Assembly (NCBI GenBank): GCA_017506865.1
Contig: JAFCMP010000357.1
Span: 253,001-317,000 of the forward strand
Origin: Tribonema minus
Taxonomy: Eukaryota > Sar > Xanthophyceae > Tribonematales > Tribonemataceae
Length of the DNA: 64,000 bases
Reading direction: 5' to 3'
Numbering within the stretch: the stretch's first letter is position 1; each line of letters begins with the position of its first letter. Under the pieces are notes generated by a model that did no database searches, was not told where the DNA came from, and was given only the letters and a program-made list of their open reading frames with translations. Made by a program: the position numbers and the translations under genes. Below, piece by piece: positions 424 to 61,658 of the stretch.

Positions 424-3032
424 TCACTTGCGTATGGTGGTGGCCCAGTCTTGCATGTCCTTCTTGCCGTACAGTCCTTTGTACTTCCCCTTGGATCCAT
501 GGAAACGCACGTAGCGAAACCGCTTGCCCTCTGACAGGGCGTTGTACTCCCTTGGTGGTGGATGAACGCCTCCGCTGCGGTGTGGCATGCGAAGCGGCGG
601 ACGTGATACATTGTCAACTTGCTGTGGAAGCAAGTTAGGGCAATATAACGCAAACATCAAGTGAAGTGGAGTTGCTGTTGGTGTGCGCTGTTCCCTTTTA
701 AGCAAGTGTTTGATCATGACCCGTGCGTGTGCATTTACTCGGACATACGGGAGCGACCACTGATTGTCAGAGCACAACCATATTGCCAGCGCTACTGTAG
801 GTACTATGCTAAAAGTAGCTTACAAGTCAGACTCTAAGCATACGTCAATGTCCAGTTAACCACGCACACAGGCGTATATTGGACAGTTCCACTGCCGCAC
901 CGCTGTGCCTGTGCTTCACATAACTGACAGCTAAACCTAGGCGCAATTATCACCTGAGTGTTGAGAATGTGCCCTGGGTACAGTGCACCTGCACCAGGTT
1001 GGCGTGGGGGCAGTGCTCAAATGCACGCAGCACGGCTCCGCGCTCTGCCAGCGGGTCCGGCCCCTCTGTGCGCCGCTTCTTCTTTTTGAGCAGATCTTGG
1101 CGTGCGTCTTCATCGAACCAGGAGTCGTGCCGCATCTGTAAAAGTTCAACAGTTCAAACACAGGCAACTTCAACTCAGTTGAGTTGTTACTTCATGCATG
1201 CGAAGGCTGATATGTTGGTGCATTAGGGTGGGGGAATTGGCACTGAACTGCTCGCGCCGATGCTTTGAGCAAGCAAACGAGCGGCCTGTGCTGCATTGGG
1301 TTGGGCGCAAGCAAGCATGTGTAAGGGCTGCGTAGGATGCTTCGATCACTCGAGTGATGTGCCTATGTGTCACGACGAGCAGCAATGCAGAGTTTACAAC
1401 AGTGTGGCGTCGCAGCGCAGCCGGGGGTCAGAGTTACTTGGCGATGATATTTCTTTTTGCTGTAGGTAACAGAATGTAGCACAAGATTCTGTGACAAGGA
1501 GTAGTAGTGTTCTGCAATCTGAGGTGAGGTGCTTGGGGAAGTACCTCAAGTACTGAGCAGCATGTATTGCGACGTGCCCCAAATGCGCGCAAGGAATCTC
1601 GAACCAACTTCAGGTGCCTTCCCTGAGGTAGACTGCATTTGCTGATCACAAGTCAGTGCAGGTTCAAGCACCCTGGTGACCCTAACACTTGCGTGTGCTG
1701 GCATCAGCCAGCTGCGACACCAATATGCAGCCTGGAGCCCATATGCGAGCCCCAGCATCATGCCCATCATCCAAACACGTGCGTTTCCCATAGTTAACCC
1801 TCATCTTCGACCACAACACTGAGTTGAAGTATGTGTACTCTCTTGAAAGCGCACCTCAAAAGCGTGATCCACGTGAGGTGGCAGCAGCGGCAGCAGGTCG
1901 GTGATTCTCCGCAGGTTCTCGCACGTCGCCCGGAACCCGCCTGAGAACTGCCACAGGATCGCTCCGAGGCACGGTCCCAGGCCCAGATACAGCGCTTTCC
2001 TTGCCTCCCACGCCTGCCTGAACTCGCCGTCAATGTTGAGCGCCTTGCCGTGAGTGAATAGCCTCTCTGCTTTGACCACTAGCGCCCCCCTACGGGCGGC
2101 CCAGCGGTTAAACCAGGAGTTGATGACATAGGGCTTTGGCGGTCCGTAGAAGGTGTTGTTGAGCTCCAGAGCCCCAAAGTGCTTAGCGTAGTACGCGTGC
2201 TCGTTCACGTCGTACTCTGGGTAGAAAGTGCTCTTCCAGGAGTTGTACCTGGGAAGGTCGCAAGGGCCAACACAGGTGGTAACAAGCACCACTCGTCATT
2301 GTGGTATTGTCAAGGCAGTTGGTTCATTCAAGGCTGAGAGGTTGCTGCAGGACAAAGTTTGTGGTTTGAGGTGGCTTTGAGCAACTTGAAGTGAGCTCAC
2401 TGGCGGCCCATGTGTGAGAAACAGGATTCTTGATGTTTGAGCTCACAGGTGTGTTGCTCCTGTCTAGCCAATGCTGCCCAGACATGAACACTCTGCAGCC
2501 TTGGGACGGTGATGCCTTGATTGCTTCAAATGTCAGAGCGATCAATTGGCGCTCCTGATATCTCCACTTCAGCCGTGAGCACTGAAATAGCCTCAGGCTG
2601 CAATATTGCTTATTTGTTATTGCCTTCTGGACCACCTGATATGGCCCTGGCATGTGCAATGAAGCTGTACCTTCAGCTGCAACTAGAGCTTGCCATGTTA
2701 CGAGCTGATTGTCGAGCAGCGTCCCCTTCGGTACCTCGAATAACAATGCTACATGCGAGATCGCAGGTTCAAGCACAGTAGAACGTGTAACACACTGGCA
2801 CACGTGTAACACACAGGCACTAGCACTGGCAGCGCCCAACGAAGGCAGTCAGGGATCATGTCTGGGCATTCAAGACAACACCGCCGGCGAATGGTATACA
2901 GAGCAGGTATGAGGCTCACTTGAACCCGGAGGTTCCGATGAAGACTTCATCGACGAGATCCAAGGGCACAAGCCCTGAGTCCGGCAAAGTGTCTGCATCC
3001 GATGCGCTCTCTCCCTTGCCCTGCGCTTGCAT
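424..3032 (-). CDS. DUF72 (YecE-like) family protein, C-terminus incomplete
   Basis: Exons read on the minus strand are 3032-2920, 2248-1855, 1135-954 and 574-428, and phases agree at every junction. The protein starts MQAQGKGESASD and carries the DUF72 landmarks in order: VFIGTSGFK at the end of exon 1, YNSWKSTFYPEY and the LNNTFYG block in exon 2, AFE-MRHDSWF across the exon 2/3 join, and YVRFHGSKGKYKGLYG in exon 4. DUF72 proteins adopt a TIM-barrel-like fold; their function is not established. The frame meets TGA at 426-424, but a good donor (GTGAGA) overlaps it. The usual C-terminal VY.(Y/F)FNND block is missing after about 278 residues, so I infer that a last exon lies outside the window and that the TGA is intronic. 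An in-frame stop lies upstream of the chosen ATG. Confidence 0.8.
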
Positions 3033-4017
3033 CCTTGAGCCTGGCGAGAGACGAGAGCTTCAACCTGTTCTTCAAACACGTGACCCTCCCGTTTATTCCG
3101 GTAAAGAAACGAGAGGCACCCCCCAACAACAACACACACAACACCACGCTACTGCTGCTGCTTCATGCTCCCTGCGGCAGAAAGGTTGCAAACAGTGCAG
3201 TACTTGCATGAAGGTGCAGTTGCGCGCTCTCTACAATCATCCAAGATGATCAACATGATCAAAAATGCAACAGTGTGAGCAGTGAGCACGGAGTAACAAC
3301 AGTGCAGAACAGAAATTGGCGTGCCCACAAGTGTGATGAATCGAAGAAAAACATGCATTGAACACACCAAACACACATGTGCACGCGCGCGCAGTAACGC
3401 CAAAGGCAGCAGCTCGCAAGCTTCACCTATCCCTTGTGTAAATGCCGTAGATGCCTATCGAGTGCATCAGTGGCCCAGGCAGGTGCCGACTGCCGAAAAC
3501 CGAAGCACAACTCTGTGCTTTCGCGTCAAGCACCGTGCAGCTAGGTCATTGCCACAGCATTATGAGCCCTGGGAATGCAATGCTCGAACCTTGTCTTTTC
3601 GTCGCCTCGCTCCGGTCTTAGGTCTCATCCTACTTAGTCTACACACTGCTATCGAGTCTACTAGGTCTGCTCCTGGGAGAAACAGCCCTGCGTAGCTTGC
3701 TGACACCGCGGGGTCTATGTACACGCTAACGCCGCTTCAACTCCAAGGCTGCTGACGACAGGGCGGGGTGCGCATGCTGCTGCACTGTCAGTTATTGCTG
3801 GCACGCACGCGTCTCTTGTGGTTGCATATGAACAGGATGGCGGCGACCTACTACCCTGCGGCCCTACTAGTGCCCAGAACTGGCGCGGCACTGCTCCTGC
3901 GGCCCGTCACAAAAGCTGAGCCTCTGGCGGCTGTTGAGCCAGAGCCGCCCTTACGGCCGCGCTAATCGCCTACGGTGCGGTGGCGATGCACTCATGGCTA
4001 CGGTGCTGGCCACCAGC
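3033..4017. other. Intergenic stretch between the DUF72 start and the RING gene stop
   Basis: It holds the promoter side of the DUF72 gene and the 3' side of the RING gene. Open frames at 3321-3695 and 3768-3965 (plus) exist, but they show no domain, no convincing splice partners and no conservation that I recognise, so I do not call genes. Confidence 0.4.
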
Positions 4018-5778
4018 CTAATGACAGTGCGTGGGCTCCACGCTGTGTGGAGCGCTGTGCCCTGATTCGAGAAGCCTGCGGCGCGTGCGCATGCGCGACA
4101 GCGAGCAGGGGTGGACGCCCCCTTCGAGTTGCATCTGGCGGGCCAGCACATTCAGGTCCTGCCGACACCCGGGGCACGTCGCCTGCACGCCAGAGCGACG
4201 TTTGCAACTGTTGCTGAGCGGTGCTGGAACATCAGCGCAGAGGATTATAGTGGAGGCTTGCCATGTCTACTACAATAGAAGTACTTCGAAGTATATACTT
4301 TGAGGTGATAATGACCGAGGCCTGGACATTGTGAACATCAAAGCAGTCAGGCACAAATCGGTGTGCGCGATTTTCGAAAAATGTGGTCACACGCTTGCTG
4401 CTCAATTTCTTACATGCTTACACCCTCATATCAGCGAGTGCTTTGAGTGGCTTCTGCATGGGACTGCTGTAGATGAAGCTATAATGCAAGTACATGGAAA
4501 TTTGTGGCTACTGTGCGTGAACAAGCAAGAAACTCACGTGGCTGCGGATCCACTTCTCGAGGCAGCATGAATGCCAGACATGACCGCTGCACAGGCGGCA
4601 AAGCAGAAGCAGCATCACAGAGAGCGCGGTGAGCTTTTTTTACACCATGTGTGCAAGTGAGCACTATGTAAGGTGTCTGCACATGCGGCCAGTGAAATGT
4701 GTTGCTTGCCGACCGTTGGTGCACCCACGGCTCGCCGGCGCATTACTATCAGCAGCATAGTCTGAGCAGAGTCTACCATGGCATGCATGTTGTGGGAAGC
4801 GCTGATAAAATAGACGATGATGGCACACATGGGGCCATGCCTTGGCATCATCCCCCACCAAAGGCAGCGCGTCATTTAAATCACACGCATGTGCACTTGC
4901 TGCGTAAGTTCACAAGTCAGAACCACCTGATTGAGCCTGCTGCGGTGTCAGACGTCACGTACATGTGTGTATGTGTACATGATACATAGTGCATACTTTC
5001 ACAAGTATCACACTTACCAAAAATGGACAACAGCAACTACTACAACTAAGAAATTCATGAGAAGATGTGTGCATTGCACCACAGTGCGTTACTTCCACAC
5101 GGGCGCCAATACGCCAACAACAAGCCACCATCACTGACCAAGGTAGGAGAGTCAGCTCCCGCCCCACAGTGAAGTCCTCCCAGCAGATGGCGCAGCCGTC
5201 GCACTCGTATGACACGATGCCGTGCACTGCATGCCTCTGGCCCTCGACTACCTCCCCCCTCAGTGGCCGCCCTGCTCGCAGTATGCCTACCAGCCAGTCC
5301 GGCAGGCAGGGGTTGGGACAGTAGAAGTCCAAGGTGCGCCTGCGGCAACGTACACGGCGTATGAAAGATTAACCCCACGCGAGGTATATAATTGTTTGTA
5401 CTCAGGCAAAATTTGCTAATAATCAAACATGGATTGGATCACCACGTGTGCGCTAAAAGGCGTGCAACTGAGCTCCAGAATAGGGAAAGCTCACTTCAGC
5501 AAACACTTTGGGCTCGCATGCGCTGACAAAAGCCGTGTTGCCGCTGCGAGGGTCAGCAAAACGCTGACATGCAAATCGAAATGAAAAGCCGCATCCATTG
5601 CAGATTGGTAGCGCGCCTATATTTCATCCCCATCTGCAAGATGCGTGCTGCCCCACCTGTGATGGCGGCTGTGCAGGTGCTCCTTGATGGGAGCATCCCA
5701 ACTTGAAGCAGGTTTCAGGTGATACCGCACGAAGGACTGCCTGGAGTTGTTGGTCACTCTGCTGTGCCTGATGCTCAT
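4018..5778 (-). CDS. RING-H2 zinc-finger protein, probable E3 ubiquitin ligase
   Basis: Four minus-strand exons, 5778-5657, 5339-5139, 4586-4538 and 4182-4018, join in phase to a 178-residue protein. Residues 90-130 form a complete RING-H2 finger: C90-x2-C93, then C108-G-H110, H113-x2-C116 and C127-P-G-C130. The finger is split across three exons, with the Cys108 codon itself interrupted by an intron, which is strong support for the chain. RING-H2 domains recruit E2 enzymes for ubiquitin transfer. No transmembrane segment is evident; the N-terminal 85 residues hold a CPNPC pair but no domain I recognise, and the tail is Arg/His-rich. The chosen ATG (MSIRHSR) is the first in a frame that is also open upstream. 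The substrate is unknown. It sits head to head with the STAR1-like gene. Confidence 0.85.
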
Positions 5779-5890
5779 GAGAACACCTGCTTGCGGCTGA
5801 GGTCGCACGTCCAGCACAAGCTGTGCATAAGCTGCCTGCCCACTCAGGTCTCGGGCTTTTTCACATCAAAACTTCAACCTCAAGATCTGG
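5779..5890. promoter_or_regulatory. Putative bidirectional promoter, RING gene / STAR1-like gene
   Basis: Only 112 bp separate the two start codons of these divergent genes, so their promoters and 5' UTRs must overlap unless one gene has an unseen upstream exon. The AACTTCAACCTCAAG stretch at about 5869-5884 matches a motif common in the introns of this window. Confidence 0.45.
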
Positions 5891-8800
5891 ATGACGGCCC
5901 TGAAGTTCGGGGATCCTCTTAGATTTCTGGCTTCTGGCATTGCTACTGCCGCGCATTGCTGGTGCATGCGCTCGACGCTGAAAGCATCTGGGCTGTCGCA
6001 GCGCATAGTCACCCTGCCCTCTGGCGCTGTCAGGGTGGGAACTGTCGATCCTCCCAGTTCTCTGCTGTCCCTGTTTGGCTTGCTCAGGCCTGCGGTGTCG
6101 CAGCGGCTGGCTGCTGGCGATCAAGACAACGACGGCGATCAACTCTTGGAGAGCCGTACGCTGTGGTCTAACCTCTCCTTCGAAGTTGGCCCAGGTATTC
6201 GACATGTGCAGATGCTTGGTTTGTGGTCCCCGGAATGCCATGCCTTGGCGCTGCTGACGGTGCAGAACACGGTGACCACAAGAAGGCCTGAACGCGAATA
6301 AGTGTCACGCGCACTCTCAAGCTGCCGCTACACCCGCGAACGAGTTCAGCGACGACAAACATGTTTTGCGCGCCTGCGACCACGTTGTGCGAGGCCGGTG
6401 AAGTGCCTCCCAACAGCATCATTGACAAGTTTGCCTGAGCCTTGGCATTTTCAATCCATACGCTAGCCATGCTGCCTTGGTGGTCACCATCGTATGCATC
6501 GCAAGCAGCACAAATTTCTACTGGATCGTGATTGCAGATAGTGGCAAGGCTCGATGAACCCTGAACAGCGCAGTTGGGCAATCAAAGACTGCATTATTGT
6601 CATGTATTCTCCACATGCACCCTGCAGTGTAAGCCCTTGCTCATGAGTATGGTAGTGCACATGGCTTTTTGTATTGCACGGTGCCTGCATCAGTAGGTGA
6701 AGGAACAATGCGTGCAGTCGTGTTGTTCACATGTTTGCCATGATTCTAACGCTTGGTACATGTTGCTGCGCAATCTGCTGCAGGCAGCAGACTGGTTGTG
6801 AGCGGGCCCTCTGGAATTGGCAAGAGCTTGTTGCTGCGCGCCATTGCCAGCCTGGACGCGCTGGCAGAGGGGTCACTGACGCTGCAGCAGGAGAACCAGA
6901 CCCCTGTCAGGTACGTTCGCATTGCCACATTGAATTAGCAGCTGGCATCGGACAGTTGAGGCAGAGGGACCTCTTTGCCAGCACATGAAATGCTACAGCC
7001 ATCGCAGTCTCGAGATCAGTGCTGCCCTGCTGCGCCCGCCGCAGTTGACAGTGTTCCACAGGCTAGCTCACAGGCTAGCTCAGTCTTGATGAACATTCAA
7101 TCGTCCCATGACAGCTGCAGCTGTCGCAGCCGTTGTTGCTATGCTACATAAATGAAAGTCTCAAGTGCGTCAACAAAGGACATGGGTGAGCTTACACTAG
7201 TTTCACTCATCACTCTTTACAATCGTGCTCTGCGTTTTCTGTTTTTCATGCTTGAAACACCACAACGATAGAAAACAGGCCGACACATCCTTGTGGATCC
7301 TGCGATCGCTGCTTGTCAGCATGTTGTGAGGTGTGGCTGCACCATTGTGTGTTAGTTACGGCACAGAAAGCCAGCACCCATGATCTTGCCCCCTCCTCTG
7401 CAGAAACTGCCAACACTGCATGTGTGGTCGCACTGGGGCGTCTGAGCACTGCTACCTTGTCCGCATGTGCAAATGGCGAACCAGGACTGGTGCACCGGCA
7501 CAGCACGCAGAGGGTCACACACAACACGGCGCACTTAGGGCTGACTCTAGACCTAGCTACTTCCGACGCGCCAGTGCTCCCCGCAGCCTGGCATTAACGT
7601 AACTGCCACTGCCTCAAGTGCATATTCGCTTTGCTGTGCCTGTGGCAGTTGGAGCGACATTGGCGTGCCGGCGTGGCGCGCGCGCGTGTCGTACGTGGCA
7701 CAGGCCTCCCCTGACGAGCCGGGGACGCCGGCAGAGTTCTTTGCCAGCGTGCGCGCGTTTGCGGCGCAGAAGGGCCGCGACTTTGAAGACCCCATCAACA
7801 TCGGTCGGTGACTCCCACATCAGTTGAAGATCAGTTGGAGCTTATGTGTAGTTTATTGCATGACTGTTGTTACATGGCATCAGACGTCGAATGTGACTTG
7901 CAACACGGCACAGCTTGCGCCATCACGCATCTTGCATCAGTGCATCAGCAGTGTATTGGGCGGGGAAACACCTTCAGCCTTGCCTTCATAGCAGTTGCTG
8001 CACCCTCCACTGCACAAGCCACACTCACTTCAATGTAGTGCAGCATTACTCTGAGCATATGCGCTTGAACTCTGCAACTCCTTGCCCCTTCTTCATGCTG
8101 TGTGGCGCTGTCGAGAGACTGCCACTGACGCCATGCGACCCTGCACGATCTGCACACACCTGTTCATTGCACAAAACCAGCATGCTCATCTGACCCTGCG
8201 TGACCTCCATGGCCTGCATTTGCTCACTGCACGACTCATCGCCCAGTCTCATCAATGTGCGCTTGTAACTGCATGTTGTGATTGTAACTGTACGTGCAGG
8301 AGCCAGCTGGGGCCTGCCTGCATCGGCATTTGACCAGACTTGGCTGAGTCTGTCTGGCGGCGAGAGGCAGAGAGCGGCACTGGCTATAGCGCTAGCTCTG
8401 AGGCCCGAGGTGCTGCTGTTGGACGAGCCGACAGTGAGTAAAACATCCCCATACCTACATACTCTGCTGAAGTACATGCATACGCACTTGAAGTTGTTGG
8501 GTAGTTGCATTGTGTTGAGTGCTGCAGCATGGCCCTTTGTCATTGCGTGCATTGTCACCTGACTCATGGCTTGCATTGTCACCTGACGTCATCGCCAGTC
8601 CATTGGGTCCGGTCTCGAGTGCCTTGGTACCCAAAGGTTGTGGATCGTGGAGCAGGACACTTCTTGTGTAGCAGTGTGCTGTTGAGAAGTAGGGTATTTG
8701 ATGGTTGGCTGCAGGGCTGAAGCTGGCAGAACCAGCACCTGTGCAATCAGTAGCCAAGTGGAAGAGCAGCTTGCAAGACAGCAGCTGCAGCCCCAATTGT

Positions 8801-18700: not shown

Positions 18701-21700
18701 AGCCACTTCAGCAGGCTTGAGCATGACAAAAAAGTGGGGTATTATGAGTGAATGACTGCTTATTGTGGACTTTGCAGTTGCTCAGCAACAAGCGCAAACA
18801 ATAGAAGTAGTCTCAACCCAAGCGCTTGCATGCAAGCGCAATAAATAGTGCGTGGTTATGTAGTGACTGGTAGCGCAGCTTCCCATACTGTGTGTATGAC
18901 ACCTTGACCATGAGGTGCATACAATGTGCGGTGGCTGATGTGCACTTTGGCGCCAAAACTGGTGCACATAGTATGCATGCAACAGTTGAACTTTCCAAGA
19001 CGATTCACGTGCCTTGTACATGCTTGCCAAGTACATTCATGGAAGTATGCACAAGTATTTCATATTTTTGTCGGCTTAGGTGTCACGTTGGACATGTATT
19101 ATGAAAGCAGGTCAACAATGCGCTCTGCATTCGCACGCTGATACCACACTCCAGCGTGGGTGGTGACAAAGGTGACATGGACACAGATAACTACACCCAT
19201 CATAGCTTTCAGTGATCACCATCATTGCCCAAGTACAGATGTCACAACGCATACAATGTCTGTACATACATGCAAGGCTAAACACATACATCAATCATTC
19301 AAGTCAGGCTGCTTACCATACTTCCTCCAAGTTTTTCACTTCTACAGCCCGGCACTTCAACAGCTTATATAACTTCAACTTTTGCACTTCAACAGCCCAG
19401 TACTTCCATCAGTCGTATCACATCATCTAAATCATTATAATCACATCATCACCATCAACTGTAAACTTCAAGTATTACATACTCATGATACTTCAACAGT
19501 ACTGTACTTCAACACCAACCTGGTGTCCGGCCTCTCCGTGGTGTCCTCGTCCAGCAGGCACGGGTTGGCCTCAAACTGATGGATTGTCAAGTCAGCCATT
19601 TACCATACTTCAACTTTTGCAGTTCAACAGCTCAATTTACCAATCACTCAATTATCATCGCCATCACAGTACCAACTGTACACCAAGTATAACACTTCAA
19701 CTGTTGTACTTCAATACCGACCTGGTAGTCTGGCCTCTCCGTGGTGTCCTCGTCCAGCAGGCGCGGGTTGGCCTCAAACTGCTGCTGCACCTCCTGCACC
19801 ATCTCCATCGCAGCAGTGCCCACCGCCTTCATGGTCATGGCGCTGAACCAGTACGGCAGCATCGCTCCGATCAGCAGGAAGGAGAAGGTGAGGGGCTCCA
19901 GGATGTTCACGCCGTCCGTGATGCCGAGGCGAGTCACAAATGCGCCGTACAGGGCCTGCGGGAGAAGTGAGCAAGGGTGTGCATATGGTGTGAATTGGTG
20001 GCAAAGCGACATCTTTATGATGACGAAGATGAAATTCAATACAAGTCTACCTTCTGTTCCACTGGATATGGTTTTTGTAAATCAACATAAATTCTTTCAA
20101 AAACAAGCGAGTTGATGATGATGATCAACAGTGACGCTGTAATGTGTGAGACGAAATGTGTAGTGTGGATGGTCGCGACGCATGGACTGTGGAATTGTCG
20201 TGAACCCAGGCAGCAGTCGTACCCGGTAATCCTGGCAATCTCATTCGCAGCGCGTTCTGCAAATGCAAGGCAGATGCCGTTGCTGTCATTTGAAATTGCC
20301 GTAGAGGCGGGTGGCGCAGAACACATTATTATCACTGAAGGCAGATTCTTGTTATCAACCTCAACACTGCTGGACTTCAACATGTCATCAAACCAGCCGG
20401 CAAGCGCATCAAGACAAAAGACTACTGTTCTGCCGCCACCAGACACGCACCAGAGACACGAGTGCAGCCGAGCCGATGGCAAAGCCCTTGCCGACTGCCG
20501 CCGTGGTGTTCCCCGCAGCGTCCAGCGCGTCCGTCTTCTCACGCACAGAGGGCGCCAGCTGGCACATCTCCGCGATGCCGCCGGCGTTGTCGCACACAGG
20601 GCCGTAGGCGTCGATGGTGAGGCCCGTGGCGAGCGTGGACAGCATGCCGATGGCAGCGAGCGCCACGCCGTATGTCTCGCACATGCCAAAGGACGTGTAG
20701 ATGATGGCGGCGAGGACAAAAACGGGGATGATGACGGACTTGTAGCCGAGCGACAGGCCGTAGATGATGTTGGTGGCGGAGCCCGTCTTGCACGACAGCG
20801 CGACCTCGCGCACGGGCGCGTACGAGTGGCTCGTGTAGTACTCCGTGATGAGGCCGATGACGAGGCCGCCGACGGCGCCGCTGGACACGCACACGAACGC
20901 GCTGTAGGGGGTTGAAGTTACCACGCCGCTCACGCCGGAGATGACAAACTCCGCGGGCAGGAAGTGGTGCGCGATCATCCAGGTGACGGGGATGATGAGG
21001 ATGGTGGTGACGATCAGCTGGAGCTTGAGGGCGCTCTCGATGTCGGGCTCCGTGTGCACGGGGCGGATGTGCGTGGCCAGGAAGGAGGAGACGAGGCACA
21101 CGAGGATGCCCGCCGCGGAGACCTCCATGGGGAAGACCATGGCGCCCCTGGTTGCGCGCGCCAGAGAGTGGGCAAGTTGTGTGGATTAGTTGTGGTGGTG
21201 CACAAGTGTACTTGATAAAAAAGTGAGCACGTGCTTTGACGGTGGCAGTACCTGTTTGAAGTTCTGAAGCAGGCAGTGTTGTACGCACGAAGAAAGCTGT
21301 GCGTGACGCGCGGGCGACCTAGTACAAATACCGATCATCGTCCAAACAGTACGCACATTAAGATAAGGTCTAGCCCCCGGACGCAGAAAAACTGCCACAT
21401 CACAAACTTCTTCAAGCTGCAACTTCAAACTCAACACACATACGTACGAAGTCTAACCCCGGAAAGCTGTCACATACCAACCTCAACCTTTAACTTCAAA
21501 CTCACCAGCCGCCGGCGACCAGGTCAGGGCACGTGGCGGCGATGACTAGCGCGGCGCACGTGGACTCTGCGTACGAGCCAAACAGATCCGCGCCCATGCC
21601 TGCGACGTCACCGACGTTGTCGCCGACATTGTCCGCGATAGTGGCGGGGTTGCGCGGGTCGTCCTCCGGGATGCCGTGCACGACCTTGCCCACGAGGTCC

Positions 21701-25809: not shown

Positions 25810-28312
25810 CTACTTGTGGTTGAGCTTGCCCCGAATGATCTCCTCGAGCAGCTCAATGTCCGCCGCAAAGCCGCGGATGCCCTCTGCCAGCTTCTCCGTG
25901 GCCATGGCGTCCTGGTTCATCATCCAGCGGAACGTCTTCTCGTCGAGCACGAGCTTGTCGCCCTCGTACTTGGCCTTGTCAGCGCTCAGCACGCGCTCGA
26001 TCGGCTCGTGCGACTCCTGCAGCTGCGTGAGCAGCGGCGGCGAGATGGTGAGGCGGTCACAGCCCGCGAGCGCAATGATCTCGTCGATGTTGCGGAAGGA
26101 CGCGCCCATGCAGATGGTCTTGTAGTCGAAGGTCTTGAAGTAGTTGTAGATGGTGGTGACGCTCTTCACGCCGGGGTCCTCGAAGCGCGAGTAGGAAGCC
26201 GTTCCCGTGCTCTTCTGCGGTGTGCGCGAGTGGCAAGACTGGAGTTAGATGATAGTACGCGTCATGCACAGCTGTGGCAGCACAACTGTCAGAGCAGCAA
26301 GTCGCAGAACCATTGAGCAGTGTCTTGATGCAGCAAGGGTGAAGTTAGACGACTGTCAACACTGCAATCAAGTGTTGTACTTTGAAGTATGTACCATGTA
26401 CAGCTGTGGCAGCACAGGTGCAAGAACTTCCAATTTGCAGAGTGGCAAAGACGCAGGACCACTGTGCAGTGTCTTGGTGCAGCGGTAATGTGTACCGCTA
26501 ACTCATCACGACAACGAATTTGAGTACCCTGAAATAGCAGTCCAGCCAAAAGCCCACTGTAATTGACCTGCCAAGGGCAACCCCAAAGCATAATTGTTCA
26601 TCCAGTCCAGTTTGGCACGCGCTGTTGACATCAGCATCAATGTTTGTGTAGCCAAGTAGTATTGCAGCAAAATAAAACTTTCAACGCACAGTGCATCACG
26701 GGGTGATCCATATCTAAGATATAATTGTTAAACCATGTCACAATCATGCGTGCCACATTTGCAGCGCACTGCAATTGGCAATCACGGCTGATGGATATGA
26801 CTGGATCAGTGCTGACCAGTTTGGTGAGCAGCAATGCACCAGCCGATGTCTTTTTCACGCCCTGAGGCCGAAAATAGGCTGAATGCGCTCAGCTCCTGTA
26901 CAAATGTACACGTTTCATGAAAAACTTTCAGACGCTTCAGCACGCGAGAATACACGCACATTCTAACACTGCTGTTCGACTAGAGGGCCCATATAATCAG
27001 CGCAACACTCCGCTGAAAGAGAAATCTCAGAATCACACAGGCTGATATCCTGAGTGATCCCTAATGGCTACCAAAGAAGGTGCACTACCATGCACCTGCT
27101 CCACGTAGTCGCTGATGTGTGGACTGTCACTCGTACACGTGAGTGTTATACAATATTTCGACTCAGTGCAACAGATTGTTTTGCTAGATGTAGGTGTTCT
27201 ATTATGACAGCAAGGATCAAATCTGAAACCACATGTGCATACATGGTTTGCGAATCTACAACTTCTTTGAACTGTGCAGCTATGAATAAAGGGAAAATAA
27301 AGAAAGCATGCAACTTCTTCAAATCGTGCAGCACTGAATGAAGGGAACCGCAGGCGATGGCGATGCAAAGCGGCTTGTGGCGAATGTGTCGTTGCCTGCA
27401 ACTGCTATCCTGCACAGGTGCTACATTTGATGTTTTTGCACGCAACCACAGTTGGTGTGACTGTTGTGACTGCATTACCAATATGTGCAGCACCAGACTA
27501 TCAAAGGTGAACTTGAAGGAACTTGAAGCTCAGCAAATCCTGCTCATGTCCAGCTGTAAAACACACACCTTAAACCAGTCCAGAATGCGCCCAACAAATG
27601 GCGAGACCAGCGTCGCCCCAGCTTCCGCCGCAGCCGCCGCCTGCGCCAAGCTGAAGAGCAGGGTTAGATTGCAGGTAATACCCTCCGCCTCCAGGACCTT
27701 CGCAGCCTGAATGCCCTCCCAAGTGCTCGCAATCTTGATCAGAATGCGGCTTTTGTCGATGCCAACGTCCTGGTAAAGGCCGATGAGAGTGCGGGCCTTG
27801 CTGAGAGTGGCCTCCGTGTCGAAGCTGAGGCGAGCATCCACCTCGGTGGACACGTACCCAGGGACGATCTTGCTTATTTCGGCACCGAAGTTGACGGCCA
27901 GTTTGTCCATGATGAGGCCCACTGTCTCACTGTCCTTGCCATGCTCCTTGCCGTAGGCGATGGCATCGTCGACAAGATGCGCATACTCCTTGATGACGGC
28001 TGCCTTGTACAGCAGGGAAGGATTGGTGGTAGCGTCGGTCGGCGCGAATCTTCGGGCAACACACAGAGAGGTTGTAGTACGGCAGCAGTCAGAACATGTC
28101 GAAAGACAAGAGATTGCGCATAAAGTACGGCACACGGAGGCGTGGAGTATCGCAATATAGGCAGATAGGTAGGTGTGCGCATGTACTCACTGCTTGATGG
28201 TGCCGATTTCGCCAGTGTCAGACACCACAGTGGTCATGGTTTTGAGCTGCTCCAGGACTGAAGGCTTCTTGTCATCGCTTGCCGTCTTGGCCTTCTTCGC
28301 AGGGGGAGACAT
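25810..28312 (-). CDS. TAL1: Transaldolase
   Basis: Three minus-strand exons, 28312-28191, 28049-27569 and 26214-25810, join in phase to 335 residues, the usual length. The signature [13 protein letters not shown] starts at residue 46. The Schiff-base lysine is K146 in [37 protein letters not shown] and [11 protein letters not shown] follow in family order. The enzyme transfers a dihydroxyacetone unit between sugar phosphates in the non-oxidative pentose phosphate pathway. The N-terminus MSPPAKKAK has no obvious targeting leader, so a cytosolic form is likely. The gene is head to head with the plastid methyltransferase gene. The ATG lies in good context, and the first exon is hydrophilic and Lys-rich. 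Confidence 0.96.
26255..26490 (-). repeat. Tandem duplication inside transaldolase intron 2
   Basis: Segments at about 26260-26345 and 26390-26485 share ACAGCTGTGGCAGCACA and CAGTGTCTTG(A/G)TGCAGC with the same spacing. It lies just upstream of exon 3 but does not include exon sequence. Confidence 0.65.
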
Positions 28313-42278: not shown

Positions 42279-45200
42279 TCATTGTGCAGCGCGCTCCAGG
42301 AAAGCAGCGACCGTCTCCGGCCCGCTGCCCAGAGCCCCCTCGAGCTCCCCCTTCACCTGCCCGATCACCTGGCCAAACGCGTCGCGCGACGCATTCCTCT
42401 CCGCCCACACCGCATCGAGCCTGCGGAACGCCCAGCAGAAGAGCTGCTCAAACGCGTCGGCGCGCTCAAACAGGCCCCAGTAGGAGGCGCGCGCCTCGCA
42501 GTACCCCCTCCCCCCCAGCCGCAGCACGTCGGCGAGCATGAGCGTGACGTTGCGCGCGACGACGGCAAAGGGGTAGCGGCGCGGCGGCGCGCGCGCGGCG
42601 TTGGCGCGCAGCAGCGCGGGCGCGTCGGCGCTGGAGAGGAGAGTCACCATGCAGCGCAGGCACAGCGTGCCCGTGTGGTCCAGGTCGCCGTCGACGCTGT
42701 CGGCTTGGAAGCCCGCTTCGCGCCAGCGCGGGGACACCGCGCCGCCGTTGCCTGGGGGGGGGGTGAGGGTGGGTATGTTGGGGGTAGGTGTGTTGGGGGA
42801 TGTATTGGTGTAGGAAGTGAGCCAGTGCTTGTCGTTGTGGTGGTATAGCGGCGGCGCTGCAGCCGAGGCGAGCTTTCGCTCAGTGATGTTAAGGTTACAA
42901 AGTTTGGTGTTTCGCTTTTGCTAGCACGTCAGGCAGTGGCACACTGTCAACTGCAGAGATCCGCATGGTCATGGCCCATGGGTGGCATTCACGCTCTTTT
43001 CACGACAGAACGTCCTAAGCTCTGCCACTATAGGACAACAAAAAAGAGGTTTCTGAACAATCATGTTGGCCATTCTATCTTTTGTTGCAGCTCAGAAAAG
43101 CGGTGAGAGTATGGAAGCATAAAACTTTGCACGCACTGCAACTGCAGGTGAGAATCAGAGCTCAAACTCCGTGAAGACTGGCATCATTTGTGTGTTAACA
43201 GATGTAGGACTCAAACTCTGTTTCCACAGCGCTTATTGTCAACTTCTGCAAAGCAGACACGGTGGAGAAAAGGGCGCGCTTGACCGCTCTTGTCCGTCAC
43301 TGCAGTGAACACCGCCACCGCTTGTGCATCAGGCAAACCCCTCATTGAAGGCACCTTCAACGTTGAGGAAAAAAAATTCAACTTTGAAGTTCACACAAAC
43401 GGCGCGCGCACCTGCCAGCGGCGGCGCGTCCGGAAACAGCAGCCCCCACAACCGCGACAGCAGCTCAAAGTGTGAGCGCACGCCGTCGTTGAAGGGGGTC
43501 TCCAGGTGATGTGACAGGTCATCCAGAGTGGCGAGCGCTGACACAGGGGGAAGCGTGCTCGGGCCCCCCCCCCCCGCACCCCCCTTGTTGATCTTGCTGA
43601 GGAATTTTCTGGCGTTGCCGAGGCCGAATTTGGCGGCCTGCTTGAGGTCTTGAGCGGCGCGGCTGTTGATGGCGCTGGTGATGGTGCTGTTGACCGACGC
43701 TGTCCACGTCTGCACGACAGCAAACAAAAACGGCATTTTTTTTGTAAATACACGTGTAGCAGTGCGTTCGACGCCGATGCTAGCGAGTGAGGACCGTTGA
43801 CAGCGATTATGGCGGTTGGCCAACATCGTTGTTTGTTGCTGAGCACTGTCATCCTGTCGCACTGCAACGCAGCATGTGGCATACACCCCTTCCCAGGGCG
43901 CCTGACCTGAGCACTGTCATCGTGGTCCCCCTGCTGGAACTCCATGCCGCCGCTGCCACGCCTCTCCGCCTGCTGCTGCGCAGCCTGCTGCTGCTGCTGC
44001 TGCGACGGCCGCCGCTGCGCAGGCGAATCGAACGGCGACACCGCATGCTCGCTGCTGCCCAAAGGCCTGCGGCAGTGCCCAGACCCACCCTCTGCGCCGC
44101 CGCCGCCGCTACCGCCTCCGCCACTGGGCCGCCTGACATGGCGCTGCCCTTGTGCTGAAGCGTGCAATGTGCTGCGTGACGCGCCGCCACCGCTGCTGCC
44201 CAGATACGGCGGCTCTGCAAACTCGCGCGCGTCGTCCCTGGCGGCGGCGGCGCGCACGAATGCGTCCTCCACGTTATAGGCCGGCACATGCGCCGCTGCC
44301 GCCGCCGCCGGCGCAGCGGCACTTACGTCTTCGTTCCAGTCAAAGATCTGGTCCGGGGGCAGGGCGTCGCTGCCGTTGAGCACTGGCGCGTCAAACGACA
44401 GCGGCAGGACCTTGACGTGTACGACTTCGTGGCTGCCGCGGGGGGCGCGTTCGATGCCCCCCAGGTTGCGCGCCAGCTCTACAATGTCATCGCCCTCCTG
44501 GGTGAGGTCCAGCCATACGTGGGGCGCTGTGCCCACGTTGTCTGCTACTTTGAGCCTGTGCAAGCGGCAGAGCGGTGGGGGGGGGGGGGGGGGTGGGGTC
44601 AGGCAGCTGGGATCTGCCACTAGGTGCGAGTTCAAAGCTACAGATGATGGTAGGGATGGTGCCGGCGAGCATAATGCAACTTGCGCTGCGCGATACAGCA
44701 TGGAATTGTCACCACGGTTGATGATGCCGGACCATGCGCGCTGAATACAGGCGGTGCTGCGCATAGCACGTAGGCTGCTGTAGCGATGCTAGTGGGAAAA
44801 GGCTCAGAGGACATCCAACCAACAGCAGTGGAATAGAGACTAGCAGACTGGAGTGCGATGTGTCCATGGTGATGCCACCAGCTCTCCATTAGCTAATCTG
44901 TCTGTTTCGACCCATCTGGCCTGAGCGATACTCCAAGCCATCACTATTTTGAACAGGCGGTAGCAGCGTTCAAACTCTTCGTTGATAGGAACTCCAGGGC
45001 AATACTTGGAACCTTAAAAGCAACATGAAGCTCGGAAGTACCCGGCCATGGCCAAAGCTGACTGAGGATGCATGCTTGCTTGCAGGCGTTCTAGGCGGTG
45101 CACAATACACATGTTTTGCTGATGCTAGTTTGTGTGTTGGTGTCACGAAAAGATGCAACCCAGAGCTCCCCACTGCGACGTTCTGCTTCGAGTTCCCAAC

Positions 45201-45455
45201 TTTGTAAACACTCACTACACTAGTGTCCGGTGCCGGCTCGTCTCATGTGCTGCACACTCACGTCTATTTTACATACAACACCACAGGATACGGACAACTT
45301 AAAGGCACGCACCTGAAGTGGAAAGTGCCACAGTAGGGAAACAAGTCCTTGAGCTGTGCTAGAGTGAGGTCCTGCTCCTGCTGCAGCTCCAAGCTGCTTT
45401 CCACGCCTGTCTCAGGGGCATCATACTCTCCTTGCAGCACGTAGTGCAGCAGCAT
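42279..45455 (-). CDS. DIX-like plus ELMO domain protein
   Basis: Minus-strand exons 45455-45313, 44555-43907, 43709-43412 and 42751-42279 join in phase to 520 residues. Residues 1 to about 110 resemble a DIX domain of the Dishevelled/SOSEKI kind: MLLHYVLQGEY as the first strand, DLTLAQLKDLF helix, CGTFHFRLKV, then HVWLDLTQEGDDIV and a final VVHVKVLPL strand. Residues 125-260 are low-complexity Ala/Gly/Ser/Gln. Residues about 310-505 match the ELMO domain: LETPFND, LLSRLWGLLFP, WREAGFQ, TLCLRCMVTLL, YPFAVVARNVTLML. ELMO domains act in Rac/Arf GTPase regulation; DIX domains polymerise head to tail. The ELMO call is firm, the DIX call is a pattern match. A GTAAGT donor inside exon 2 (44326) is probably unused because the frame stays open. 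The ATG is the first after an in-frame stop. Confidence 0.8.
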
Positions 45456-49995: not shown

Positions 49996-53677
<3,682 letters not shown>

Positions 53678-55014: not shown

Positions 55015-56890
55015 TCATTTCTTCTCCCGGTGCGCCGCGCCGACCGCCTCCGCGACGCTCGCGTAGCCGTTCTTTCGCAGCAGCGCCGCGAGCTCCTTCT
55101 TCACGCGCTGCACGCACCCCGCGCCGTTGTACACCATCATGGAGTAGATCTGCACTAGCGACGCGCCCGCGCGGATCTTGTCATACGCGTCTTGCCCCGT
55201 GCCGACGCCGCCCACGCCTATGAGCGGCACCTTGCCACCGGTGAGGCGGTACATGTCGGCGATGATGGCGGTGGAGGCGTCGCGCAGGGGGGCGCCGCTG
55301 AGCCCCCCTGTCTCACCCTTGAAGTTGCTGCGCAGGCCCGCCGGGCGCGCAATTGTCGTGTTGCTCACAATGAGGCCGTCGACGCGCGATGACAGCGCGA
55401 CGGCGGCGATGTCTGCCTTCTCCTGCTCTGTGAGGTCCGGCGCGATCTTCACCAGGAGCGGGAGCGTCGCCTTCTTGGTCTGCACTTGAACTTGGTCGCG
55501 CGCGTCCGCGGCGCGCTCTATCAAAGATGCTATCGCCTCGCGGCGCTGCAGCAGCCGCAGCCCCGGCGTGTTGGGCGAGCTCACGTTCACCTGGGACGAG
55601 GAGGGCGCAGGCGCCGGGGGGGGGGCGGGGGAAGAGTTGCATGCGATCATGAATTGAATGTATGGTACAGCGAGTGGGCATTGCTAAGGGGATGCGGCCC
55701 TGTGATAATGAATTCGTAGCCGCACAGGCCCGCAAGCATGGCCTCTGTGTCTAGAAACGCGTGTTCGCACATCTCGCTGTGCTGCGCAGGCGAGACCGTT
55801 GCACCGCTGTTCTAATTTTTTTTTTGTGTGGTCGGCCCCAGGCTAGCACCTGCTTCCAACATGGCTGCGGCCTTGCGCTAGCACAGATGTAGTCAACTGG
55901 CGTGTCACTACGCCAGCGATAAGCACTGCAACATGTCGCGCACCAGGCTTGCCCACGTCTGAGTACTTGCAGCGATGCCTGCACGTCTGCCCACGACAAC
56001 TTGAATTACTTTGCCTGAAGTAAGTTCTGACAAGACTCTACTAATCAGAATGTCAACGGGCATTCTCCTCGTTGCACGTGCAATCGTCACAAATTTCAAG
56101 CGCGCAATGGCAATGGCTGCGACTAAGGCACTCTGCTGACAACAGCGCGCTCACTCACCACCACAAAATCGCCATACGGCGCCAGCGCCTTGATCGCAGC
56201 GCAGTAGTCATCTGCCGCCTTGTCCTCTGCTACCCACTTGTTCTTCCCCACATTGACTCCGAGAAATCCTTTCGCCGGCCCCTGCTGAGCCTCCGCTCTG
56301 GCTTTCAGCCTCTCCGCCACCGCCACCGCTCCGTGGTTGTTGAAGCCGCAGCGATTGATCACCGCTTTATCTTCCACAAGTCTGAACATGCGAGGCTTGT
56401 CGTTGCCAGGCTGTGGCTCTGGCGTGACGGTGCCGATTTCAATGAAGCCAAACCCCATGTCCAGCAGGCCGTTGACTGCTTCGGCGTTCTTGTCGTAGCC
56501 GGCGGCCAGGCCAATGGCATTGGGAAAGGTCAACCCTAGCACCTGTGTCTGCAGAATGGGGTCATTCGGTGTTAAGTCGCACGGGGATAGGCCCCAGGCA
56601 GTGGCCTTGATGCTCACGTTGTGGGCGCTCTCGGCGTCCAGCAGCCGCATCAAGGGCATGACGATGTTGTCGCTGGCATACAGATACGCCGCTCGAGTGA
56701 ACCTGAAGTCGTTGCTATAGTCCCAGCCGACGCCTGCGGCCAACAAGGCTGCGGACAAGGCGGTCAAGTTGCCAGAGCTGGTGGTGCCGCTCTCTGGCTC
56801 TCTGCTGCTGGACAGTCGACGCAGGGCGTTGGCTGCCACTCTGCGGACGCCATTGCCGCTGGTTCGTCTGGCTGCCTGCCTGATCAGCAT
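55015..56890 (-). CDS. DHODH: Dihydroorotate dehydrogenase, class 2 (mitochondrial)
   Basis: Two minus-strand exons, 56890-56159 and 55590-55015, join in phase to 435 residues. The N-terminus MLIRQAARRTSGNGVRRVAA is an Arg-rich mitochondrial presequence, followed by the hydrophobic LTALSAALLAAGVGW. FMN-barrel landmarks follow: GLAAGYDKNAEAVNGLLDMG, IEIGTVTPEPQPGNDKPRMF, NRCGFNNHG, and across the intron VNVSSPNTPGLR, whose second Ser is the class 2 catalytic base. Later come SNTTIARP, GGLSGAPLRD and PLIGVGGVGTGQDAYDKI. The enzyme oxidises dihydroorotate to orotate with quinone in pyrimidine synthesis. The start ATG is followed by the presequence, while the frame opens only weakly upstream. No defect is seen. 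Confidence 0.96.
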
Positions 56891-57318: not shown

Positions 57319-58263
57319 TCAGTCCTCAGCAGCCAGCAGAGGAGGCCTCACGGCCAAGTAGACCGCAGGCCCAAGTACTGGGATGGCGCAGAAGGCTGCA
57401 AGGCGAATGTTCGCGCTGCGACTGCCATCAGTGTACATGCCGCGCCTCCGCATGTCCTCCAGCATCGGCTCCCACACAACCACTGAGAGTAAGAGCAGGT
57501 CTATGGAGCTGACGTGCACCAGCGTCTGCGACCGGAACAGCAGCATGTATTCCTCGAATGAGGTCCACACGTGGTTGGTGATGGCGAACTGCAGCAGTCC
57601 CAGTGCGAACACCAGCGTCAGCACCCCCCCCAGACGCAATGTCGAAAGCGTTGCCAGGCCCCGCAGCTGCGCTTCGTCAACGCAGGGCCGGTACTGCCGC
57701 AGTGCCAGGTACGGCGCAAGCAAGAAGTAGCCACCTGCGAAGCTGGCGAGCACAAAGGGCGCCGCTGGCAGTCTCTGCCCTTTGCTGCCCGGGAGTAGTA
57801 GCTGGGCGTATATGGCAGGCACGACCCCGAGAGCATTGAATATCACTACATAGAGTTGGTTGATGTCAGGTGAAAAAGGGTTGGTCATAAGGGCAGCAGT
57901 CATCTGAGTAACAGCCGCGTCGCCTTCAGGCGTGTGACCGGGAGCATAGAGGAATGCATACGCCACAAGCGCAGTCCATATGGCGGTATACGTGACTGCC
58001 CTGAGTCGGTCGGCACCACCGCCACCGCCACTACTGTCTGGCGCATCATAACGAGATGATGCGTTCAAGCTGCTCCTGATGAGACCGTTGCGGCTTTGCG
58101 GTCGCAGCACTCGCCTGTCCTGATCAATTGTGCAGCGTGCACTCCTGCAGATATGCGATGCCCCCGTGCAAGATACATGCTTCCGAATGGCGCTCCCATG
58201 TACCAGTGCAGCAGCTCGATTGTGCAGCAGTCCGATGACCAGCAGCGGCAGCAGTCGCCGCAT
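57319..58263 (-). CDS. Plastid-targeted multi-pass membrane protein, paralogue 1
   Basis: A single exon of 314 codons. MRRLLPLLVIGLLHNRAAALVHG is a signal peptide with an AAAL junction, followed by a Ser/Arg-rich transit-like stretch to about residue 85. The mature part has about seven hydrophobic segments and the conserved blocks APGHTPEGDAAVTQM, NPFSPDINQLYVVIFNALG, YAQLLLPGSKGQRLPAAPFV, PYLALRQYRP and WEPMLEDMRRRGMYTDGS. I recognise the family as conserved in photosynthetic organisms but do not know its function. It has no intron, whereas paralogue 2 has one after the LLLPG motif, so intron loss or a retrocopy is possible. It shares a short upstream region with EAF6. Confidence 0.8.
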   Translation of the reverse strand: MRRLLPLLVIGLLHNRAAALVHGSAIRKHVSCTGASHICRSARCTIDQDRRVLRPQSRNGLIRSSLNASSRYDAPDSSGGGGGADRLRAVTYTAIWTALVAYAFLYAPGHTPEGDAAVTQMTAALMTNPFSPDINQLYVVIFNALGVVPAIYAQLLLPGSKGQRLPAAPFVLASFAGGYFLLAPYLALRQYRPCVDEAQLRGLATLSTLRLGGVLTLVFALGLLQFAITNHVWTSFEEYMLLFRSQTLVHVSSIDLLLLSVVVWEPMLEDMRRRGMYTDGSRSANIRLAAFCAIPVLGPAVYLAVRPPLLAAED

Positions 58264-58496
58264 GGCAGGTATATACGTGCTAATCACTGCGACGCCGACC
58301 TAAACTTCCAAACTTGATGTTGCTCTATGAGTTTATTTAACTGCCAGACCAGGCTTGCTAGCGTGGGTCAGGCTCTTTTGAGCGTAGGTCAGACAATCGC
58401 ACGCGCTGACCACTGCCACCTGTTGGTATCGCTTCGCTTCACTGCAAGCACCAACGGCAGAGGACACACCCAAGGTAGCACTGCAGAGCTACAGCG
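58264..58496. promoter_or_regulatory. Putative bidirectional promoter, plastid membrane protein 1 / EAF6
   Basis: 233 bp between divergent start codons; contains a direct AGCGT(A/G)GGTCAG repeat (58361-58392). Confidence 0.45.
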
Positions 58497-60112: not shown

Positions 60113-61502
60113 TTACTCATCCAGCGGCAGCAACGGGGGTCGCGTGGCTACGTACGCCGCTGGCCCCAGAACCGGAATGGCGCAGAACGCGGCCAACTTC
60201 AACTTCTGGCTCCCGCTCCCATCCGTGTAAGCGCCGCGCCGCCGCATGTCCTCCAGCATGGGCTCCCACATGACGAGCGAGAGCAGCGACAGGTCCACCG
60301 TGCTCACGTGCACGAGCGTCTGAGCGTTGAAGAGCGTCAGAAACTCCGGCAGCGTGGCGAGCGCGCCGCTCTGCACGGCATACGCCACGAGCCCGCAGGC
60401 CGACACGAGCGTCAAGACTCCCCCGATCTTGGAGTTGGTGGCTTTAGCCAGTCCGCCCAATGAGGTTTCGTCGACACGCGGACGATACTGTCGGAGCGCC
60501 AGGTAGGGCCCTAGCAGAAACAGGCCTCCAGCAAAGGAGCCAAGTACGAAGGGGGCGGCTGGCACGGGCTTCTGGTCCTTGCTGGCTGCGAATGTGGTAG
60601 AGGCAGCAGTGACAGGAAATGGCGTGATGAGTGCAGTAGAGGAATGGTTGTCGGCGTCCAGTGGAATGAACAGCATAGTGGCAATAGTTGCACTGGTGAT
60701 GTCAGAGTTATATGCACTTCATGATCTCTGTGCAGCGATCACATGCACAGCTGGTCTGACAACAACAGCTGCTGGAAGTAGGAAAACATTTTGCTGGCGC
60801 TCAATCAGCGCGGAATAAGGGCGTGCCAGAACTCATTTCTACGTGCAGCACCGCGTGTACAACAGGCAACACAGCATCTTTGCTTGCAGCGTGCGAGAGC
60901 AAACAGCTTGCAAAGCCACATTTAACGAGTGCTCAAGTCTCATCACTGCACATGCAGATGACATCGCTGCAGATGATGCGACAACGCAATCAACATGAAA
61001 CCAACCACCACACTGGTTTGCCTGCTGCACACTCACCTGGAAGCAACAGCTGCGCGAAGACCGCTGGCATGATGCCCAGGGCATTGAAAATAACGAGAAA
61101 CAAAGCGTTGATCTGTGGATCAAAAGGATTCGAGATCAGGTCGGCGATCATTTGCTTGTCTGCTGCCTCTGCTATCGGATTATGCCCTGGGGCAAGAGTG
61201 AAAGCGTATGTCAGAAACAGAACCCAGACCGCAGCAAAAGCTGCTGTACGCGTCTTGGTCCGATCCTGCAAGACGGGTGCTGCATCTTCGTCAGCCAGCG
61301 GCGCAGCTGATAGTAATGAGCTTCTCCTCTCCCCCTGCCACACCAGCTGCCGCCGGTCATGTGAGCTGCGCAGCGCTGACTCCGTATGCGAGGTTGTCAC
61401 CTGCTTCAAGACAACCGCAGCTCCAGATGGAGCATGAACGAACGCGGTTGCAGTGATGCTGCAGGCCAACAGCACACCCACTACCGTTGCCACTCTGCGC
61501 AT
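60113..61502 (-). CDS. Plastid-targeted multi-pass membrane protein, paralogue 2
   Basis: Two minus-strand exons, 61502-61037 and 60585-60113, join in phase to 312 residues. MRRVATVVGVLLACSITATAFVHAP is a signal peptide ending in a textbook plastid ATAF motif. The mature region aligns with paralogue 1 throughout: LAPGHNPIAEAADKQM, NPFDPQINALFLVIFNALG, FAQLLLP, PVPAAPFVLGSFAGG, PYLALRQYRPRVDE, TLVHVSTVDLSLLSLV, WEPMLEDMRRRGAYTDGSGS, AFCAIPVLGPAAYVATRPPLL. The targeting regions are much less similar than the membrane core. The gene is likely a multi-pass protein of plastid membranes. The intron falls inside the loop LLLPG/A-SKDQ. Function unknown. Confidence 0.85.
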
Positions 61503-61658
61503 CGGATCAGGCTCTCAACCGACTGCCCTCTCTGCGGATACAGGGAAGTTGACGCGCCTCATTGAGTCACTCGTTTGATCCTAAGCTTGAAAGCGCTGAG
61601 CTGCCAGTGAGAGGCGTAAACAGGCAAGGGCTTATTGAAGCATCGGAATTCCTGCGCC
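61503..61658. promoter_or_regulatory. Putative bidirectional promoter, plastid membrane protein 2 / HEAT protein
   Basis: 156 bp between divergent start codons. Confidence 0.45.

Follow-up and report, generated by a model that had tools for sequence, protein, structure and literature searches.

A divergent DIX-like domain joined to an ELMO domain that appears to lack the catalytic arginine in a probable photosynthetic stramenopile

The gene considered here lies on the minus strand of a 64-kb window, the whole stretch of DNA that was analysed, and occupies positions 42279-45455, in exact agreement with the coordinates of the initial annotation. Its ATG start codon at 45455 is the first methionine codon downstream of an in-frame stop located 42 bases upstream, and its stop codon is at 42279-42281. 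Four exons, interrupted by three GT-AG introns of 757, 197 and 660 bases, are predicted to splice into 1563 in-frame bases that encode 520 residues with no internal stops. Exon 1 (45313..45455) carries the start codon and the first half of a DIX-like domain (residues 1-48, with the last codon split), and terminates at the donor GTGCGTGC, while exon 2 (43907..44555; acceptor CACAG, donor GTCAGGCG) encodes the second half of this domain, including its HVWLDL block, and most of a low-complexity linker, which, as read from the translation, is rich in Gly, Ser, Gln and Ala. The end of the linker and the beginning of an ELMO domain fall into exon 3 (43412..43709; acceptor TGCAG, donor GTGCGCGC), and the main part of the ELMO domain, together with the stop codon, into exon 4 (42279..42751; acceptor CCCAG). 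The G+C content at third codon positions is 0.723, 0.779, 0.818 and 0.899 in exons 1-4, and the overall G+C content of the introns is 0.509-0.536. A match to HNF-1B_C (E 0.0019, under its own cut-off) overlaps the low-complexity linker and was taken as chance.

The continuity of the frame, the splice sites and the codon-position bias favour the reading of exons 1-4 as one transcript. Since the introns of the joined model were called from sequence only, a DIX-linker gene and an adjacent ELMO gene might in principle have been wrongly joined. However, the reading frame of exon 2 runs without a stop to the end of intron 2, and exon 3 starts just 197 bases on, which makes two separate genes unlikely; moreover, the splice phases preserve the frame, third-position G+C is high in every exon, and the combination of DIX and ELMO has already been published as a protein architecture (PMC12077222). 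We thus regard an erroneous fusion as extremely improbable and proceed with a single four-exon gene. When the genome (158 Mb in 554 contigs) was searched with residues 1-126, both matches at E≤1 were exons of this very gene, and no other locus was retrieved.

The surroundings of the gene are ordinary, with frames for an H+-pyrophosphatase (20412-21185, minus strand), a transaldolase (27533-28186, minus), a protein arginine methyltransferase (52572-53054, plus) and a dihydroorotate dehydrogenase (55018-55683, minus). Two further minus-strand frames, at 57322-58299 and 60993-61514, share similar hydrophobic stretches and have no Pfam match at E≤0.001; the latter contains an ATAFVHAP stretch that resembles a plastid-targeting presequence. 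Searches of the 64-kb window for tRNAs and Rfam families gave no match.

The identity of the host can be approached through another locus of the same genome. On contig C246 (around 659788; locus 652-1770), a single open frame combines bZIP_2 (E 6.5e-7) with PAS_9 (E 6.6e-15), both above their cut-offs, and its PAS domain contains the LOV motif GRNCRFLQG; by its predicted domains, this frame is an aureochrome. Aureochromes have been described as exclusive to heterokont algae and as identified only in stramenopiles (PMC3779222, PMC9416419), and the host is therefore most likely a photosynthetic stramenopile, which supports the stramenopile connection drawn in the initial annotation. The light-harvesting family PF00504 has 92 matches in the genome at E≤0.001, some of them containing stops, and contig C446 encodes a LOV domain that is preceded by a long N-terminal extension. 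No plastid contig was recognized among single stretches taken from 60 of the 554 contigs, 59 of which had a G+C content of 0.475-0.701 and one of which consisted entirely of N. A scan of viral contigs gave one pattern match, without confirmation, and an NCBIfam search found no family.

The C-terminal part of the protein is readily assigned. Residues 329-492 (42366..43517, minus strand, split by intron 3) match the ELMO_CED12 family PF04727 with 95.2 bits and an E-value of 6.1e-27, and four of the six PDB matches of this part at E≤10 are ELMO2/ELMO1 chains (E 2.3e-6 to 3.1e-5), the remaining two being unrelated. In a six-frame family search of the genome, two ELMO loci emerged, namely the gene under study (E 8.7e-21) and one on contig C105 (E 2.6e-12). 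The latter (250001-260000, minus strand) represents a second ELMO gene, in which the same frame extends the protein N-terminally by ~480 residues.

The N-terminal part, comprising residues 1-102 (44393..45455, minus strand, split by intron 1, with the C-terminal border estimated from the alignment), is much more divergent. Residues 1-106 alone match the DIX family PF00778 with 20.1 bits (E 5.9e-4, best stretch 22-68), below its gathering score of 22.2 bits, and in the context of the full protein the match reaches 16.6 bits (E 0.0074). DIX is nevertheless the sole Pfam-A family that these residues match at E≤10; by itself, this match is suggestive, not secure. Comparison with animal and plant DIX domains yielded little: none of the four PDB matches of residues 1-106 at E≤10 in phmmer was a DIX domain, and with an HMM built from DVL2, Axin and SOK4, residues 1-106 ranked 95th and the full protein 709th of 1894 scored entries. 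In pairwise comparisons, the scores to DVL2 and SOK4 were no better than those of shuffled sequences (reached by 497 and 295 of 500 shuffles, respectively), and the score to Axin was moderate (reached by 7 of 500).

The same genome, however, contains other DIX-like domains. A genome-wide search with the Pfam DIX model revealed two loci, both under the cut-off, on contigs C445 (E 0.0428) and C533 (E 0.335); when their joined or single DIX exons were rescored, the E-values improved to 7e-4 and 1.6e-4, again slightly under the Pfam cut-off. At the C533 locus (914001-924000, about 915-5930), DIX-like exons are followed on the same strand by a Gln-rich linker and, within about 5 kb, by J-domain exons (DnaJ E 4.7e-6, 27.1 bits compared to a cut-off of 27.8). 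A match of the C533 DIX-like domain to APH (E 0.0014, under the cut-off) was taken as chance. The C445 locus (904001-914000, about 3700-5150) carries the third set of DIX-like exons, and ten selected frames downstream of them matched no Pfam family at E≤0.01. Partial tandem copies adjoin the DIX exons of C445 (81% and 74% identity over 26 and 27 residues) and resemble duplicated or decayed exons.

Pairwise scores of the N-terminal domain to the C445 and C533 domains exceeded those of all 500 shuffles in each case. Once these two sequences were added to DVL2, Axin and SOK4, the resulting five-sequence HMM placed residues 1-106 first in a test database of 2601 entries (2 window entries, 2000 shuffles and 599 window frames), with 15.6 bits and an E-value of 0.0023 against 8.3 bits for the best shuffle; the full protein ranked second and a frame of its own exon 1 third. 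An HMM of C445 and C533 alone again ranked residues 1-106 first, with a narrower margin (12.0 compared to 9.4 bits for the best shuffle). When all three own-genome domains were combined in one profile, it retrieved eight PDB sequences at E≤10, of which the three Axin-1 chains (E 0.0013-0.002) are the only ones near significance, the others being four DVL-2 chains (E 0.09-0.7, singly not significant) and one unrelated protein. In hhalign, the same profile matched the DVL2/Axin/SOK4 profile with a probability of 93.7% and an E-value of 1.8e-7. Because the sequence under study makes up one third of this profile, the PDB and hhalign results speak for the group rather than for this domain alone.

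The absent or weak likeness to any single animal or plant DIX domain might also be expected if the N-terminus were another ubiquitin-like domain, of the PB1 or Ras-binding type, and the Ras-binding domain of human ELMO2 indeed has a ubiquitin-like fold (PMC12077222). Yet no Pfam-A family other than DIX was matched, and seven of the eight PDB matches of the three-domain profile are DIX domains, though from two proteins only, which leaves such an identity very unlikely in our estimation. The tests that include own-genome relatives support a divergent DIX-like domain. Hence, the reading of this locus as a DIX-like domain joined to a clear C-terminal ELMO domain, put forward in the initial annotation, is borne out by the gene model, the PF04727 match and the DIX profile tests. 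Its description of the N-terminus as following the DIX pattern stands with the profiles that include own-genome relatives, but not with Pfam alone or with animal and plant references only. As regards the families that it pointed to, ELMO is found with E 6.1e-27 and DIX just below its cut-off, whereas the plant SOSEKI family (PF06136) gave only weak matches genome-wide (E 0.575 and 4.64).

The DIX-like domain resembles those of SOSEKI, Dishevelled and Axin, and it is N-terminal, as in SOSEKI, but in the HMM alignment the segments preceding strand 2 and following the HVWLDL block are longer, and the protein ends in an ELMO domain. In SOK4, Trp83-Tyr84-Asp85 has been placed in the head-to-tail interface, where Trp83 contacts Phe81, His34 and His36 of the neighbouring unit, Tyr84 contacts Phe37, and Asp85 contacts His36 (PMC7042713). 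By motif, Trp62-Leu63-Asp64 of our protein corresponds to this triplet, and Trp-x-Asp is common to all three own-genome DIX-like domains. The other interface residues are not kept: His34-Pro-His36-Phe37 of SOK4 aligns with Ala-Pro-Glu-Thr (with His-Pro-Asn-Val on C445 and Gly-Glu-Ser-Val on C533), and Phe81 aligns with His60. Self-polymerization of this DIX-like domain is thus not assured, and judging from the comparison of interface residues, a mixed DIX assembly would be at least as plausible as self-assembly. DIX-like sequences have been reported earlier in SAR, including brown algae, and DIX domains from six SAR species polymerize in vitro (PMC7042713).

Proteins combining DIX and ELMO domains were named ARAMIS by Kostareli et al. 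(mBio, April 2025, PMC12077222) and described as a third class of ELMO proteins. They are further characterized by a disordered linker with short motifs that separates the two domains and by an enlarged L1 loop. They form one of four SAR-specific DIX families, collectively called 'Musketeer', the others being ATHOS (without a C-terminal domain), PORTHOS (with a kinase) and DARTAGNAN (with DnaJ). In Phytophthora, ATHOS is found near the flagellar insertion of zoospores, and its pull-down contained spectra of ARAMIS and DARTAGNAN; the reciprocal pull-down confirmed only the pair of ATHOS and DARTAGNAN, so that the inclusion of ARAMIS relies on mass spectra (PMC12077222). This paper was the only one retrieved on 'Musketeer proteins' with DIX, and, judged by title and the start of the abstract, the only one among those naming a DIX domain and ELMO that concerns their combination.

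Our gene has the corresponding features: an N-terminal DIX-like domain (under the cut-off alone, ranked first with own-genome relatives included), a linker, a C-terminal ELMO domain (E 6.1e-27), and, through the aureochrome, a host within the stramenopiles or alveolates. The likeness is one of described architecture and extends to the genome, where further DIX-like genes are present, including one that carries a J domain. It is thus very probable that the gene encodes an ARAMIS-type Musketeer protein of a photosynthetic stramenopile. The domain combination is real, and its architecture is already published and so not new; the view of the initial annotation that this architecture was not known to be characterized is outdated, and with it the claimed novelty falls. 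The C533 locus, in turn, fits DARTAGNAN by the order of its predicted domains, although both the assignment of its exons to a single gene and the term auxilin-like reflect our own reading.

The new detail resides in the ELMO domain. ELMOD proteins are GTPase-activating proteins (GAPs) of Arf/Arl, with the consensus WX3G(F/W)QX3PXTD(F/L)RGXGX3LX2L, in which the arginine is invariant and catalytic; its replacement by lysine abolished GAP activity in mammalian ELMODs and the function of two plant ones (PMC8483735). The corresponding stretch of our protein (residues 373-398; 42648..42725, minus strand) reads WREAGFQADSVDGDLDHTGTLCLRCM and, in the best ungapped fit, agrees with the consensus at 8 of 13 positions. 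In this fit, residue 388 (codon 42678-42680), at the position of the invariant arginine, is aspartate, and the glycine that follows the arginine in the consensus is changed as well. The ELMO domain thus shares with ELMODs a partly kept GAP stretch and differs from them in Asp388, as well as in having a DIX-like domain and a long linker in front. GAP catalysis by residue 388 is therefore unlikely, and the catalytic arginine appears to be missing from the ELMO domain; the available text of the ARAMIS paper makes no mention of this residue (PMC12077222). On this basis, the domain probably does not work as an arginine-finger GAP, and a role in binding or as a scaffold seems likelier than GAP catalysis. 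In the second ELMO gene, on C105, the stretch likewise agrees at 8 of 13 positions without gaps, with asparagine at the arginine position, and an arginine lines up only with a one-residue insertion.

Could the domain nevertheless act as a GAP through a different residue and localize Arf/Arl GTP hydrolysis to the polymer? ELMOD proteins do act as Arf/Arl GAPs (PMC8483735), more than half of the consensus positions are kept, and Arg372, Arg374 and Arg396 are nearby. However, even the exchange of arginine for lysine abolishes activity in mammalian ELMODs (PMC8483735), and here aspartate occupies the position, with the subsequent glycine also altered; we consider an active GAP unlikely. An ELMO domain is also shared with animal ELMO1/ELMO2, which work with DOCK; in human ELMOs, too, the arginine that is catalytic in ELMODs is reported to be missing, while the same source places the corresponding region of CED-12 partly elsewhere (PMC11290852). 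Our protein differs from ELMO1/ELMO2 in having no further ELMO1/2 domain in Pfam and a DIX-like domain in front. As for DOCK itself, a six-frame genome search, which misses exons and was run without a positive control, gave no match to DHR-2 lobe A at E≤0.001, and the same intron-blind search, also without a positive control, gave a single match to DHR-2 lobe C under the cut-off (E 0.412).

DIX domains form protein chains, and ELMO domains act on small GTPases. Taken together, we lean towards a mechanism in which the DIX-like domain would co-assemble head-to-tail with other Musketeer DIX domains at a localized site, whereby many ELMO domains would be concentrated there. With comparable, moderate confidence, we envisage the ELMO domain as a scaffold that binds a small GTPase or some other partner without speeding up GTP hydrolysis. 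The earlier proposal, by which the fusion would tie the control of GTPases directly to a polarity polymer, is supported only in part: DIX-like and ELMO domains do occur in one gene, but Asp388 in place of the invariant arginine makes GAP catalysis by this residue unlikely. More tentatively, the ARAMIS ELMO domain may have lost its arginine finger in this stramenopile lineage and turned into a pseudo-GAP; a mixed DIX polymer shared with the DIX/J-domain (auxilin-like) protein would then multiply this GTPase-binding scaffold and form a polar hub of membrane traffic, a possibility to which we assign a rather low likelihood.

The published ARAMIS architecture is thus documented in a probable photosynthetic stramenopile, the genome of which also contains DIX/J-domain exons. 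To this architecture, our analysis adds a testable correction, namely that the ELMO part of this ARAMIS-type protein probably does not act as an arginine-finger GAP, and it is the Asp388 substitution that merits further attention. If other ARAMIS proteins also lack the arginine, the family would be better regarded as a binding scaffold than as a localized GAP.
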